Assembly (NCBI GenBank): GCA_027365345.1
Contig: DAHXNO010000105.1
Coordinates: forward strand, 1-64,000
Direction: 5' to 3'
DNA: 64,000 nucleotides
Source of the DNA: Granulicella sp.
Lineage (GTDB): Bacteria > Acidobacteriota > Terriglobia > Terriglobales > Acidobacteriaceae
In this document: in pieces, positions 55,188-61,739 of the stretch
How positions within the stretch are numbered: position 1 is the stretch's first letter
How the letters are laid out: the number at the start of each line of letters is the position of its first letter
Notes under the pieces: generated by a model
Database searches by the model: none
What the model was told of the DNA's origin: nothing
The model's input: only the letters and a program-made list of their open reading frames with translations
Translations under genes and position numbers: made by a program

Positions 55188-55262
55188 GTCCCCGTCGTCC
55201 AGTGGTTAGGACATCGCCCTTTCACGGCGGTAACACGGGTTCGAATCCCGTCGGGGACGCCA
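55188..55262 (+). tRNA. tRNA-Glu (anticodon TTC)
   Basis: GTCCCCG...CGGGGAC acceptor pair, G discriminator + CCA, anticodon loop CCTTTCAC, GGTTCGAATCC T-arm. Confidence 0.95.
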
Positions 55263-55269
55263 AATCTTT

Positions 55270-56508
55270 TCAAGCACTTACAGAACTTGGCTCCGAATTC
55301 TTGGGTACACTCTCGGGTACACAATTTCTCCCACTTTCCGGTCGAATCATGGCAATGACCTTGCTTTGCGCCTGACGCTTGGCCAAGGTCACCGCCTGCG
55401 TATAGACATCCAGCGTGATCCTCGTGGAAGCATGCCGCAGAAGTTCCTGTACCGTCTTCACATCTTCTCCATTTGCCTTGAGCAACGTAGAGAAGGTGTG
55501 GCGAAAGGTATGCCAGGACAACTTCTTTGTGATGCCAGCGCGAAGGGCCGCTGGCTGGATGTAATACCGCATCAGCGAGGACAAATAGAGAGGATGTTGT
55601 CCGCGATTTCTGTCCGCACGATTGCTAGTGCTGGCAAAAATCCAGTCCTCCGGTTGAACACAAAGAGCATGTTGATACCACTCCATCAGGTCTTGCGCCA
55701 AATACTCGTCGAGTGGGACCGGTTTTTTGGATGCTTCCGTTTTACATTTGCCCACGACCAAATCGACGACTGAGCGCTCCACCCGCAGCAGATGGTTTTG
55801 GAAATCGACATCCCTCCATTGCAAGCCCGCAAGCTCTCCCCGACGCAGGCCGGTAGCCATGTCGAGAAACAGCAACACCCGCTCCCGCAATGCCAATTCT
55901 GACAGCAACGCACGCATTTCTTCGACCTCAAGGACCTCAGGAATGCGCTCCCGCTTACTGCTCTGCCGCACGCCGGATCCACGCACCGGTCCGGTGATCG
56001 GGTTACGGTCTGTGAACTCCCAACGAATGGCATGATTGAACAAAGCGCTCATCAGGTTTCGGATGCGAGCTTTCGTGGCGTTGGCGCGATCAATCTGCCG
56101 CAGCCATTGCTCCACGGCGATGGTTTTTATGTCCCCCAGCTTATGGTTGCCCCACCGGGGTGTGATCCATCGGTTGAGACAACTATCGTACCGGTCCCGC
56201 GTCGAATAGGCCTTGCCCTCTTCGCCGTTATCGACCAGTTCCGTCTCCCGGTAATGCTGGACCAGTATTTCCATCGTGATTGGCTTGTGATTGCCTGGGC
56301 CGTCGGCGTTGATTGCCAATCGCAGTCCGGCCACTGCTTTTTCTGCAGCGGTCTTGGATGGATACCGCTCAACCAGGCCAATTTGCTTTTTGCGTAAGAT
56401 ACGCTTTCCATCTGGCAGCGTTTCCCGCCATCGAAAAATCCAAACTGGTTCTCTGCTCCCGTTCATCGAAAGAGAGACACAGCCTTTTTGATACCGCGCC
56501 TTTCTCAT
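55270..56508 (-). CDS. tyrosine-type site-specific integrase
   Basis: Phage_integrase-like: ATGLRRGELAGLQWRDVDF, LSWHTFRHTFSTLLKANGEDVKTVQELLRHASTRITLDVYTQA. Confidence 0.95.
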   Translation of the reverse strand: MRKARYQKGCVSLSMNGSREPVWIFRWRETLPDGKRILRKKQIGLVERYPSKTAAEKAVAGLRLAINADGPGNHKPITMEILVQHYRETELVDNGEEGKAYSTRDRYDSCLNRWITPRWGNHKLGDIKTIAVEQWLRQIDRANATKARIRNLMSALFNHAIRWEFTDRNPITGPVRGSGVRQSSKRERIPEVLEVEEMRALLSELALRERVLLFLDMATGLRRGELAGLQWRDVDFQNHLLRVERSVVDLVVGKCKTEASKKPVPLDEYLAQDLMEWYQHALCVQPEDWIFASTSNRADRNRGQHPLYLSSLMRYYIQPAALRAGITKKLSWHTFRHTFSTLLKANGEDVKTVQELLRHASTRITLDVYTQAVTLAKRQAQSKVIAMIRPESGRNCVPESVPKNSEPSSVSA

Positions 56509-56587: not shown

Positions 56588-56845
56588 TCATTGGGTATGT
56601 CCTTTGCGCGCGCGGAGCCATGTGTCCAGCTCTGAAGTCAGGAACCGCCAACGCTTCCGTTGGTCCCCCTCCCCGATCGGGTGCCCTGGAACTGTCCCCT
56701 TTCTTGCCAGCCGTTCCAGTGTTTTGGGGTGCATGCCTACAAGCTGCGCACCAGTCACGGCATCGACATATCTTTCTGGAATGCAACTTGAATTCAATAA
56801 CGCCCGCTCAAGCATTGTATTCATACGTTGCTCCAGTCTGCGCAT
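56588..56845 (-). CDS. helix-turn-helix (excisionase/MerR-like) DNA-binding protein
   Basis: YVDAVTGAQLVGMHPKTLERLARKGTVPGHPIGEGDQRKRWRFLTSELDTWLRAR. Confidence 0.75.
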   Translation of the reverse strand: MRRLEQRMNTMLERALLNSSCIPERYVDAVTGAQLVGMHPKTLERLARKGTVPGHPIGEGDQRKRWRFLTSELDTWLRARKGHTQ

Positions 56846-56911
56846 CTGATTTCTTTTCGTGAATGTGCTTCGTCCATGTGCCCAGAGTAGGCACTGGCCA
56901 GGCGGTCCCCT

Positions 56912-56946
56912 CGGAAAATTTTTCCGCGGAGTTTCCTAAAAGGAAA
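56912..56946. repeat. 35-bp double-dyad element, copy 1
   Basis: CGGAAAATTTTTCCG (7-bp arms) + 5-nt spacer + TTTCCTAAAAGGAAA (6-bp arms); inverted counterpart at 59860-59894. Confidence 0.9.
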
Positions 56947-57312
56947 ACCGCACAATTTGCGGTGCATTGGCGCGATGGACGCAGTCGGTCGCTGTGTCCA
57001 CGGAAGGCAATGTTCATGCGGGTATGCATGTTTTACGCATGGCGGAAGTGGATTGTCTCCCATCCAGCATTTTCCGGTCTTTTGCGCTCTCCGGCACTGC
57101 TGCGGGTCAAAATCCGGCGCCCTGGCGGCACGGCAGGTCTCTGCTTTTCCGGTTCCTCCCAAAACAAATTTGCCGCCCACTCCAGCGTCAAATTTCTTTT
57201 GGTTGCCCTCCCAAAAAGCGACCTTTGGCCTGGGGAGCCGGGACCCTTGCATGGCTGCGCCAGATGTGCCCGGAGAGCTTCAAAGACCCGGGCAGAAAAT
57301 GGAGATCAAGAC

Positions 57313-58029
57313 ATGACAACCACAACCATCCGCGAAGAACAGCACCTCGCAACCAACACCATCCTGCACGGCGACTGCATCGACGTGATGCAGCAGATGC
57401 CCGCCGCAAGCGTCGATTTCATCCTCACTGATCCGCCGTATCTGGTGAACTACCGCGACCGCACGGGCCGCACGCTGCCGAACGATTGCGATGCCGAGTG
57501 GCTCAAACCAGCCATGGCAGCGGCGTTTCGCGTGTTGAAGCAAGACCGCCTGATGGCGTGTTTCTATGGCTGGCCGCGCGCCGATGATTTTCTCGATGCG
57601 TGGCGCAGCGCTGGCTTCCGCCCCGTGGGGCACTTCGTCTTCCGCAAGAGTTACACGTCGAGCGCGCGGTATATGAAGTGCCAGCACGAGCAGGCGTACC
57701 TGCTGGCCAAGGGCAGGCCGCCGCTGCCGAAGTGTCCGCTGCCCGACGTGCAGCGGCTGATCTACACCGGCAACCCGCTGCATCCCACGCAGAAGGCCGT
57801 CCTGTCGCTGGCGCGGCTGGTGCGCACTTTCACGCTGCCGGGCGAGCTGGTGCTCGATCCCTTCTGCGGCTCGGCATCGAGCTGCGCGGCGGCGCTGCTG
57901 ACGGGGCGCAAGTACATTGGCGTGGAGATGGACCGTGTTTACCACGCTGCGGCCAGCGCCCGCATGACGCGCATTCATGGGAGGATCGCGCGCAAGCGGT
58001 CCTCCTGCGGCATCCCCACGGCTGCTTGA
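57313..58029 (+). CDS. DNA adenine/cytosine-N4 methyltransferase, beta-class motif order
   Basis: ILHGDCIDVMQQMPAASVDFILTDPPYLVNY, HPTQKAVLSLARLV, ELVLDPFCGSASSCAAALLTGRKYIGVEMD. Confidence 0.92.
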   Translation: MTTTTIREEQHLATNTILHGDCIDVMQQMPAASVDFILTDPPYLVNYRDRTGRTLPNDCDAEWLKPAMAAAFRVLKQDRLMACFYGWPRADDFLDAWRSAGFRPVGHFVFRKSYTSSARYMKCQHEQAYLLAKGRPPLPKCPLPDVQRLIYTGNPLHPTQKAVLSLARLVRTFTLPGELVLDPFCGSASSCAAALLTGRKYIGVEMDRVYHAAASARMTRIHGRIARKRSSCGIPTAA

Positions 58030-58307
58030 TTTTGGCCACGTTGCGGACGCGCGTCAAGACGTCCGCATCCTTCCCCCTGCACGGCATCGCGTCTTGACCC
58101 GCGCCCGCCCGTGGCCCCGCCTGCTGGCTGCCGTGAGAATGCCCATGCTGTGCGCTTTTCTCGCCACTGCAATTACAAAAGTGTCCGATCATGTTCCAAT
58201 AGCCATCCGCGTCCGTGAGTGCATTGGCGATTTACCACTTGTTGTAAGTTCCCCAAGTGTGCCGCTGCGCATGCCGGGCACGAGTAAATTTAACTGCTGC
58301 GTGTGCA

Positions 58308-59000
58308 TTATCCCAGGAGGAATCCGATGGCGTCCGTGAGCAGATGGGCGATTATATTAGCGCCAAGATCGCGCTGCCATAAGTAAAGACCGGTGAGAAT
58401 AGCTCCTCCGAATCCTGCAATCATAAGGTGCGCCCACCCCCAATAGCCCAGATGTTCGAAGGTAAACGCCGCGCATGAGATTGCCGCCGCTCCCCATTGC
58501 GACCCGAGAATTTCTGTGAGGCGTTCTATCGCAAACCCTCGAAAATATATCTCCTCAAAGACGGCAGCGCGCACGACGATCAGGACTCGAAGCCGAAGCG
58601 GCAAAGCAGTGACAGCAGCCATTCCGGGTTCGCGGGGGGAAAGTCCTAATGCCGGATAGATGACCAAGTAGATAAAGGCCATGCCTCCAACCATGATCAG
58701 GGCTCCCAGAACCCCAAAAACAGCCGTCTTCCAATTTGGCCGTTTCAGTCCGATGGAAGAGAGCGGACGGCGCTCGACTAGAAGGACATAGGCAAGCAGG
58801 ACGAGAGTGAGCACCCAAAATACAACTTCGCGCCACCCTTGCGCAGACAGGCTTTCTCCATGAACCAGCCAGCCGGGAATAGGCAGGGAGAGGATCACTA
58901 GCAGCGCGACGGTACCCACCAATCTCGCCAGAGATGGTCGGACAGGATGGCGGTCAGAGATTGTGGCCGCGGCTTGTGGCGCGAACTCTTTGGCTGACAT
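58308..59000 (-). CDS. CPBP-family intramembrane metalloprotease (CAAX protease-like)
   Basis: AAVFEEIYFRGFAIERLTEILGSQWGAAAISCAAFTFEHLGYWGWAHLMIAGFGGAILTGLYLWQRDLGANIIAHLLTDAIGF. Confidence 0.9.
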   Translation of the reverse strand: MSAKEFAPQAAATISDRHPVRPSLARLVGTVALLVILSLPIPGWLVHGESLSAQGWREVVFWVLTLVLLAYVLLVERRPLSSIGLKRPNWKTAVFGVLGALIMVGGMAFIYLVIYPALGLSPREPGMAAVTALPLRLRVLIVVRAAVFEEIYFRGFAIERLTEILGSQWGAAAISCAAFTFEHLGYWGWAHLMIAGFGGAILTGLYLWQRDLGANIIAHLLTDAIGFLLG

Positions 59001-59080
59001 GAGTGCTCCTTGGAGTGGATCGATCTCCACTATCCCAAAAAAGATTGACTGTAACGACCGTAACATGTAACGATAGTGTC

Positions 59081-59680
59081 ATGTCAAGTAGAAAGATCGA
59101 ACTGCTGGATGCCTCGCTCCGGTATCTGGTCAAGCACGGCGTGGCGAACATTTCTCTGCGGCCCATGGCCGCTGCGCTTGGCACCAGTCCGCGAATCTTG
59201 ATGTTTCACTTCAAATCGAAGGAAGCCTTGCTCCAGGACGTTTTTGGGGAGCTGAATTCTCGTCTACAGGCTTCGTTGCGAACGATGACTCCCACTGATT
59301 TCGATCCTTTGCGTGTTCCTCCTCTGAAACGCTTTTGGCAATGGGCCACCAGAAAAGACAATTTTCCGTATTTTCGCCTGCTCTACGAAGCCCAGATTGT
59401 TGCCCTGCAAAATCCAAAGGAATATGGCCGCTATCTGGAGAAAGCCTCCGGTGATTGGCAGGCGGTGGTCTTTGACTCGATGTCTGCCTCACTGAAAAGC
59501 AAGGCGATGGCCTCCCTCTGCATTGCCGTCTTCGACGGACTGATGTTGGAGCGGATGAGCACCGGAAACAGTTCCCGCCTGACGGAATCTTTGGACCTCT
59601 TCATTGCAATGGCCACCAAGCCTTCACCGTCTGGCAAATCGCGCCGATTGGATCGCAGACGAGACCGAGCAGTGCAGTAA
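59081..59680 (+). CDS. TetR/AcrR-family transcriptional regulator
   Basis: LLDASLRYLVKHGVANISLRPMAAALGTSPRILMFHFKSKEALLQDVF; divergent to the CPBP gene. Confidence 0.88.
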   Translation: MSSRKIELLDASLRYLVKHGVANISLRPMAAALGTSPRILMFHFKSKEALLQDVFGELNSRLQASLRTMTPTDFDPLRVPPLKRFWQWATRKDNFPYFRLLYEAQIVALQNPKEYGRYLEKASGDWQAVVFDSMSASLKSKAMASLCIAVFDGLMLERMSTGNSSRLTESLDLFIAMATKPSPSGKSRRLDRRRDRAVQ

Positions 59681-59859
59681 TCTCAGCAAGGACGTAGTTG
59701 TCAGACGCACCGCAAAAAGAAGCGCAAGATTTTGCGCGAGTTGTCGCCTACAGGCCAATGCACTCGCCCAACACCGTGTAATGCTCTCATAGCGATCTGA
59801 CCTCGGTAGCTTCCCACCCGAAAATCTTCCTTCCATATCACAAGAATTGAAACTCCCGA

Positions 59860-59894
59860 TTTCCTTTTAGGAAATTGCGCGGAAAAGTTTTCCG
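59860..59894. repeat. 35-bp double-dyad element, copy 2 (inverted relative to copy 1)
   Basis: TTTCCTTTTAGGAAA + TTGCG + CGGAAAAGTTTTCCG; reverse complement matches 56912-56946 at nearly every position. Confidence 0.9.
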
Positions 59895-59985
59895 ACTGGC
59901 AGTGGTTTCTGCGGCCTTACTTTCGCTGAAGACGCGGAGTTCACGATCTCCGCAAATCATCGAGCGAAGGAAGGGAGAGCCGTCC

Positions 59986-60318
59986 GTGTCCAACCATATC
60001 AGGAAGCTTTTTGCCAACCCTCATCGCCCGCAATGGAAGCGGGCCGCATCCATTGCCGCCATTGCCATAGCCGTGACCACACCGCTATACGCTCAACAGG
60101 CCGGGGGCGGCAGCCCGTGGGAGAACGCGGTCGGCGTCCTCGAACAGGCCTTTACCGGACCGATCGCCACGGGACTGAGCCTGGTGGCCATCGTGGTGGG
60201 CGGCCTGATGTTCGCCTACGGCGACGGCCAGTCGAAACGCATGTTGGCCGGGATCGTCTTCGGCATCGGCATGGCCATCGGCGCGGTCAACTTTATGGCC
60301 TGGCTCTTTCCGGGGTAG
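59986..60318 (+). CDS. VirB2/TrbC-like conjugative pilin
   Basis: Long leader, then two hydrophobic segments ATGLSLVAIVVGGLMFAYGDGQSKRMLAGIVFGIGMAIGAVNFMAWLFPG; GTG start. Confidence 0.85.
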   Translation: MSNHIRKLFANPHRPQWKRAASIAAIAIAVTTPLYAQQAGGGSPWENAVGVLEQAFTGPIATGLSLVAIVVGGLMFAYGDGQSKRMLAGIVFGIGMAIGAVNFMAWLFPG

Positions 60319-60426
60319 CTGCGTAGGCAAAACGGAACAGCAGGGCGCATGCAGACAGCGGTTGCAGAAAACAACGACAGCGCAACAACACAACGACATA
60401 TAAGGATGGGCAGAAAGGAGGGGCAG

Positions 60427-60738
60427 ATGGCGGCAGGCGGTCCTCGGCGGAACAAAGTGCACAAGGCGATGAATCGCCCGCTGACCATTCTGGGCGCGGA
60501 GCGGCGGCTGTTCTTCGTGGCGCTGATTGCAGGCGGGGCCGTCTTTTCGCTGATGCACAGCTTGCTGGGCGGCATTCTGTTGTTCGTTGTCGGGGTCGTC
60601 ATCGCGCGGATTGCGACCAAGCACGATGTTGAGATTCTCAGGATACTTTTCAACTCGGCAAAGTTCCGCAGGAGGTACGACCCCATGCAGTGGGAAGCAA
60701 CGGCAATCACCATAAGGAAACACCATGTTCAAGATTGA
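60427..60738 (+). CDS. VirB3/TrbD-like T4SS protein
   Basis: KVHKAMNRPLTILGAERRLFFVALIAGGAVFSLMHSLLGGILLFVVGVVIARIATKHDVEILRIL. Confidence 0.85.
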   Translation: MAAGGPRRNKVHKAMNRPLTILGAERRLFFVALIAGGAVFSLMHSLLGGILLFVVGVVIARIATKHDVEILRILFNSAKFRRRYDPMQWEATAITIRKHHVQD

Positions 60739-61472
60739 GCAAATCACGAAGGAGTGGAAGGAGGCCGGCGCCTTCATGGCGCAGGTGGACCCGTATGGCT
60801 TTTGGGACGAGCACTGCTTCCTGACGAAGTCCGGCGACCTGGGCTGCGCGCTGCAGGTTGGCGGCATCGATGCCGAGGGCCTCGACCATGCCGGACGGGA
60901 CCACGTGGTCAAACGCTTCGAAGCAGCACTGCGGACACTGGACGAAACGACGCGGCTGTATCAAATTCTCTTCCGCCACAACCGGCCAGAGATACCGCAC
61001 GAGGAGTACACGAACTCGCTGGTGCGCGCAACGGTGGAACAGCGCGCGGAGTTCCTCGCAGCCAAGGCAGACCGGCTGTACACCATCGAGATTTTCTGGA
61101 TCGTGATGGTCGATGGCAGCTACGCCAAGGCAGGCCTGCTCAACGCGTTATCGCAGTTGCCCAAATCGCCGCGTGCTTCGTTGCAGCAATTGCGCGCGCT
61201 GTTTTCCGCCAGCAAGGAACGAACGCTGCTGTACGAGCAGATCGAACGCGACCGGCTGCGGCTGGAGCAAAAGGTAAAGAGCTTGAGTGGGCAGATGAGC
61301 GACCTGACGACGGTCACCCTGCCAGGGGCGGAGGAGACATTCCGCATATTGCGGCGTCTCGTAAACTTCCGCCCCTTGAAGATTGAGCAGAGGAAACTGC
61401 ACGGGATGCGGCATCTCGACTGGCAGGTGTGCGACTCGGAACTGGAGGCGTATCGGGGCCACCTGCGCATTG
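60725..61472 (+). pseudogene. truncated VirB4/TrbE-like T4SS ATPase, N-terminal part only
   Basis: MFKIEQITKEWKEAGAFMAQVDPYGFWDEHCFLTKSGDLGCALQVGGID...LVNFRPLKIEQRKLHGMRHLDWQVCDSELEAYRGHLRI; no Walker motifs before the frame changes and stops. Confidence 0.8.
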
Positions 61473-61739
61473 CGCGACATGGTCTGCCGGGGACTGCTGC
61501 TGATGCTCCATCGTGCTGGGGCCATCGAGCTTCCCAAGGTGCGCTGGGTCAACCCCAACCCCTTTGTGCGCCGCCAGTGTCTGGGACAACGCAGAATCGG
61601 TGACCTGCCTGCACTGTGCGGTGAAGTTTATGCCTGGCGGCGTCCCATCAACCGCGACCGTACCACCATCGACTGGAAGTTCACGCGCAAACATGCCCGC
61701 CGGAAACTGCATTACTCAATCACACGGACACGGTACTAG
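61464..61739 (+). pseudogene. mosaic of transposon-type scraps: DruA/DUF4338-like stretch then IS630-like transposase C-terminus
   Basis: In one frame: ALRDMVCRGLLLMLHRAGAIELPKVRWVNPNPFVRRQ, then ALCGEVYAWRRPINRDRTTIDWKFTRKHARRKLHY; assignment from remembered family patterns. Confidence 0.4.

Follow-up and report, generated by a model that had tools for sequence, protein, structure and literature searches.

Among described systems, the closest to the one examined here is TraR, the LysR-type regulator (LTTR) of the Tn4371 family of conjugative elements (ICEs). In the excerpts of its description on which we draw, the LTTR gene, conserved in this place, follows the mating genes and reads against them, overexpression of TraR in ICEKKS102Tn4677 raises xis 80-fold and traG 3-fold, and a T-N11-A inverted repeat is proposed next to the -35 element of the xis promoter (Matsumoto 2024, PMC11448139). 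An LTTR gene downstream of the mpf genes, in reverse orientation, is likewise found in the acidobacterial ICEs described below. The differences concern the sites and their diversity: in the same excerpts traG has a half site only, whereas acidobacterial virB2 and xis/int have full matched sites, and no diversity of operator types is reported there, whereas the acidobacterial ICEs show about ten types that change with the LTTR (PMC11448139). Moreover, the element studied here lies at tRNA-Glu, whereas the Tn4371 att site consists of 9-bp repeats near tRNA-Gly. The window element is not filed here as a member of the Tn4371 family.

Two other systems provide further parallels. TciR of ICEclc is also an ICE-encoded LTTR needed for the activation of excision and transfer (Pradervand 2014, PMC4063739; eLife 2020, PMC7423338). 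It activates only PbisR, not Pint directly, and the signal is relayed by BisR and BisDC (PMC7423338), whereas the acidobacterial sites point to both promoters being controlled directly. In canonical LTTR promoters (RBS/ABS; for example BenM, CbnR, BsrA), a dyad near -65 that includes T-N11-A is the recognition site and a second site adjoins the -35 (PMC8407307); the acidobacterial promoters resemble them in the place and motif of the distal dyad. However, the acidobacterial operator types I and II consist of two almost perfect dyads side by side, with centres 20 bp apart, and these ICEs have two target promoters facing apart. None of the papers searched describes a control system for ICEs of Acidobacteria.

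A decayed ICE with two double-dyad sites

The window analysed is a 64,000-nt stretch of a Granulicella sp. draft genome (contig DAHXNO010000105.1). From left to right, the element comprises tRNA-Glu, genes for a tyrosine integrase and an xis-like protein (both on the reverse strand), copy 1 of a double dyad, genes for a DNA methyltransferase (MTase, forward), a CPBP protein (reverse) and a TetR-type protein (forward), copy 2 of the double dyad, and then virB2, virB3 and virB4 (Table 1). The integrase gene starts 8 bp from tRNA-Glu.

Table 1. Features of the element and of its two double-dyad sites (window coordinates)
Feature	Position	Strand	Basis or remark
tRNA-Glu(TTC), likely ICE integration target, left end of the element	55188..55262	+	ARAGORN and Rfam
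Tyrosine integrase	55270..56508	-	Pfam PF00589, E=1.5e-26
HTH_17 xis-like gene, served by copy 1	56588..56845	-	Pfam PF12728, E=4e-9; relatives arranged alike
-10-like box TACTCT, xis promoter	56884..56889	-	Fixed distance from dyads, conserved
Copy 1 promoter-proximal dyad CGGAAAAnTTTTCCG	56912..56926	-	Centre 30 bp before -10 box, about -42
Copy 1 distal dyad TTTCC-N5-GGAAA with T-N11-A, RBS-like	56932..56946	-	Centre 50 bp before -10 box, about -62
N6/N4 DNA methyltransferase	57313..58029	+	Profile match; homologue in type II ICEs
CPBP/Rce1-like membrane protease, cargo	58308..58997	-	Pfam PF02517
TetR-type regulator, cargo	59081..59680	+	Pfam PF00440
Copy 2 distal dyad TTTCC-N5-GGAAA, RBS-like	59860..59874	+	Centre 51 bp before -10 box, about -63
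Copy 2 promoter-proximal dyad CGGAAAAnTTTTCCG	59880..59894	+	Centre 31 bp before -10 box, about -43
-10-like box TACTTT, virB2 promoter	59918..59923	+	Fixed spacing to dyads
virB2/trbC pilin gene	59986..60318	+	Pfam PF04956, E=6.6e-17; relatives
virB3	60349..60738	+	Pfam PF05101
virB4, truncated after residue 249 of about 825	60725..61471	+	tblastn with relatives' VirB4

The two 35-mers (56912-56946 and 59860-59894) lie in opposite orientation and match CGGAAAANTTTTCCG-N5-TTTCCTAAAAGGAAA without mismatch, a pattern found in 0 of 100 dinucleotide shuffles. Their coordinates and sequence, with dyads 5 nt apart and perfect arms, are as the initial annotation gave them (the arms measure 7+7 and 6+6), and its observation that the copies differ only in the centre of the first dyad and in the 5-nt spacer also holds. 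The 13-bp core GGAAAANTTTTCC has exact matches only at these two sites in the 4.2-Mb draft genome; no Rfam family matched at the dyads, and a literature search for TTTCCTAAAAGGAAA gave no match. In each copy the dyad centres are 20 bp apart and the distal dyad includes T-N11-A. Relative to the gene it serves, each copy points the same way, and 22-23 nt separate it from a downstream TAnnnT box (at 56889 on the reverse and 59918 on the forward strand). Taking this box as the -10 element, the dyad centres fall near -43 and -63.

Copy 2 indeed lies upstream of virB2, as first annotated. The pairing of copy 1 with the MTase gene does not stand: the site is 366 bp from the MTase start versus 66 bp upstream of the xis-like gene on the other strand, and it is the xis-like gene that is its constant partner in relatives, two of which (L036 and L039) have another gene in place of the MTase. 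A homologue of this MTase, 64-68% identical to the window copy, is found immediately 5' of virB2 in type II ICEs of three genomes (G409, G405 and G408).

VirB4 homology ends at 61471, and VirD4 was not found in the window's own genome; therefore the window holds the left end of an ICE, the rest of which has been lost. It retains the integrase, the xis-like gene, virB2-virB3 and the 5' part of virB4, whereas relatives also carry VirD4 and VirB11. An attR-like repeat, taken as at least 12 bp of the 3' end of tRNA-Glu, was looked for and not found elsewhere in the window. At the broken end of virB4, an ORF of 118 aa (61383-61739), with no Pfam match and adjoining a large TonB/Oar-like receptor gene on the reverse strand, may mark the deletion junction. 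The type I LTTR described below was not found in the window's own genome either. The best LTTR match there is an 87-residue HTH (G000:C110:467-727, 36% identical) within a 107-aa open frame; at this locus (L257, 404-727, reverse strand) the LTTR HTH fragment (PF00126), which resembles the ICE regulators, is followed by what looks like transposase sequence. It is possibly the wreck of an ICE regulator, though, at 36% identity, not of type I. The window element is thus a decayed ICE in tRNA-Glu, without its own LTTR, VirD4 and most of VirB4, and its two promoters are probably orphan fossils, unless another regulator took them over.

Placement of the sites in relatives

A VirB2 search retrieved 64 loci, nearly all of them from Acidobacteria; among plasmid records, only distant TrbC matches (32-44%) were seen. 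In the relatives the virB2 match is preceded, at about 120-230 bp, by a double dyad that keeps the 15-5-15 geometry and comes in two sequence versions. Type I (TTTCC-N5-GGAAA / CGGAA-N5-TTCCG) is that of the window and of L008-L011 and L013; type II (TGTCC-N5-GGACA / TGGAA-N5-TTCCA) is that of L024, L036, L039, L041 and L044. Between the two types, the arms of both dyads change together.

When whole genomes were searched with the type I+II consensus, exact matches were mostly face-to-face pairs 2-8 kb apart, or singles on broken contigs. Matches with at most one mismatch occur in 17 of 301 family genomes, compared with one match for the backwards control. Exact matches across the 301 genomes amount to a few sites each, always adjoining these genes in the cases inspected; neither genome-wide scatter nor a REP or IS family, the outcomes that the initial annotation named as refuting it, was seen. 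A phylum-wide search with the window's consensus returned only a chance-level match with three mismatches (G004), because the operator types differ in sequence.

In the exact type I/II pairs inspected, one site precedes virB2 and the other the HTH_17 xis-like gene; in L111/L112 the partner site precedes a small ORF and then a serine recombinase gene instead. Paired sites have the same orientation relative to their own genes. Read toward the gene, a TKTCC dyad is followed by a YGGAA dyad, about 22 nt and the TAnnnT box, mostly as GCC(C/T)TAnnnT, with no conserved -35. More generally, an inverted second copy of the virB2 operator beats all 50 shuffles in 26 of 37 loci, against 1 of 37 for the direct-orientation control. 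No second copy was detected in the other 11 of the 37, some of which are at contig ends; L032 is among the others. The partner copy in those 26 loci precedes a recombination gene. The suggestion of co-regulatory operators is supported for the transfer (virB) and excision (xis/int) genes, and not for the MTase.

Some other features of these loci may be mentioned. In G404:C259/C160 (L112, L111) and in L029, a serine recombinase replaces the tyrosine integrase while the paired-operator layout is kept. The ICEs of G409, G405 and G408 carry a Dcm-like cytosine MTase (named by eye) in the transfer region downstream of virB4. In three complete ICEs it is directly preceded by a conserved protein of 126-130 aa (for example in the G408:C6 ICE, L129:11598-11975, reverse strand), which has no Pfam match and recurs in many related loci.

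Operator types and the LTTR gene

ICEs without type I or II dyads have other sequences at the equivalent spot before the same virB2 core promoter, for example GGATTATTG..GTAATAATCG in type III and GGGTATGC-N7-GCATACCC in type IV. In most of these further types, an inverted second copy again precedes the xis-like or recombinase gene. A distal dyad centred 50-52 bp before the -10 box (about -63) is found in types I, II, III (G412), IV, IVb, X and, weakly, IX; types VII-VIII have no clear dyad at -63. The symmetric T-N11-A is present in the distal dyad of types I, III (G412), IV, IVb and X, and type II has T-N9-A in its place. About ten operator sequence types occur on one ICE backbone, strongly variable between ICEs and matched within each.

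The right ends of three complete type II ICEs have in common not only VirD4 and VirB11 but also a LysR-type gene that runs in the opposite direction. The TetR-type regulator of the window was rejected as a candidate, not being seen among the genes common to the three complete ICEs compared. Among the ICEs read to their right end, most have an LTTR gene (PF00126+PF03466) 0.03-2.6 kb from virB11, generally on the other strand, and about 18-30 kb from the paired sites; in a few ICEs no LTTR was found in the stretch read. In type I, only G404:C30 has the operator and the LTTR together on one contig; the other type I LTTR (G396:C31, 92% identical) comes from a genome with a type I operator, which lies on a different contig.

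The co-variation of the two was assessed by a Mantel test on 19 ICEs with operator and LTTR both known; the type III operator of G411 was taken from L247. The more alike the LTTRs, the more alike the operators (r=0.855, p=2e-4), also after removal of VirD4 similarity (partial r 0.832, p=2e-4). One ICE, G413, has two adjacent LTTRs, of which the type III-matching one was chosen after the match was seen; if the nearest LTTR is always taken (18 ICEs), r falls to 0.81 and partial r to 0.775. In the LTTR tree, types I, II, III and IV each form one branch with 100% bootstrap. The ICEs of G413 and G408:C10 have VirD4 proteins 92% identical, LTTRs only 26% identical and unrelated operators, which is what a joint exchange of regulator and operators would produce.

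Alternative readings and a proposed mechanism

The sites, the promoter geometry, the paired placement and the operator-LTTR co-variation can be read directly from the sequence. That the paired sites are shared promoter operators is, in our view, very probable, and the LTTR is quite likely their regulator. The strongest competing explanation, although still improbable, is that another regulator (the HTH_17 xis-like protein, a host factor or a repressor encoded elsewhere) uses the sites and that the LTTR is associated with them as a passenger of linkage. Palindromes by themselves name no protein, and the sites stand at both promoters whatever the binder. However, the xis-like proteins do not track operator type in sequence comparisons: they are 78% identical between types VII and I and 67% between VIII and II, and some pairs within type I or type V cannot be aligned. 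A host factor would stay constant across the ICEs of one genome; G405 and G408, however, contain ICEs of more than one operator type each. As to linkage, VirD4 is also near the LTTR, yet it shows no co-variation with the operators once the LTTR is removed (partial r -0.067, p=0.74).

It is far less probable that the sites are an oriT (as initially proposed), a replication origin, recombination sites of an invertible segment, or hairpins in ssDNA or RNA. Dyad pairs are known at such sites, and the arms co-vary, as in hairpins. However, an RNA hairpin would have to be transcribed, whereas the sites are upstream of the -10 box, and no Rfam family was matched; types VII and IX have weak or no perfect dyads at the operator position; and there are two promoter-proximal copies in many unrelated sequence types, wholly different between close ICEs, unlike the nick site of a conserved relaxase. 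Least credible is the earlier idea of a small mobile cassette with MTase, CPBP and TetR genes, which would fit the inverted terminal placement and the matching of sequence within an element: between constant flanking genes, the interval can be as short as 1.3 or as long as 9.6 kb and its cargo is unrelated, no transposase was recognised in it in the window, the position relative to the -10 box is fixed, and the sequence type goes with a regulator gene at a distance of about 18-30 kb.

The best explanation of the sequence data, and a likely one, is that an element-encoded LTTR co-activates excision and transfer via both sites. Each 35-bp double dyad would be the region where an activator binds upstream of the promoter that depends on it. 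The LTTR, encoded just past virB11 in intact relatives, may bind both dyads as a tetramer, the distal 15-bp dyad (about -63) serving as the recognition site and the proximal one (about -43) adjoining the position where a -35 box would be, and the bound LTTR would recruit RNA polymerase to the -10 box that has no conserved -35. Thereby the copy before xis/int would drive excision and the copy before virB2 and the following genes the mating apparatus, in a joint switch-on. Binding by the LTTR, activation rather than repression, and an inducer are what we infer; activation is the likely sign by analogy, because Tn4371 TraR raises xis and traG in the excerpts cited (PMC11448139).

The new part is the matched, swappable sets of LTTR and operators. 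The LTTR and its two operators would evolve, and be exchanged, as a matched set. There is about an even chance that the ICEs form interchangeable "control groups", in which such a set is swapped between almost identical transfer backbones. If so, several ICEs in one cell could be under separate control, comparable to phage heteroimmunity groups. The matched LTTR-operator pairs on one promoter backbone offer the LTTR family a ready-made panel of specificities, and exemplify how regulator and operator co-evolve while modules are exchanged among conjugative elements. With the switch, its two target promoters, a probable regulator and about ten specificities named, ICE activation in an abundant soil phylum becomes testable. 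Given the matched site versions in related elements, each with an LTTR gene of its own, excision and transfer to a new cell seem to be switched on jointly.
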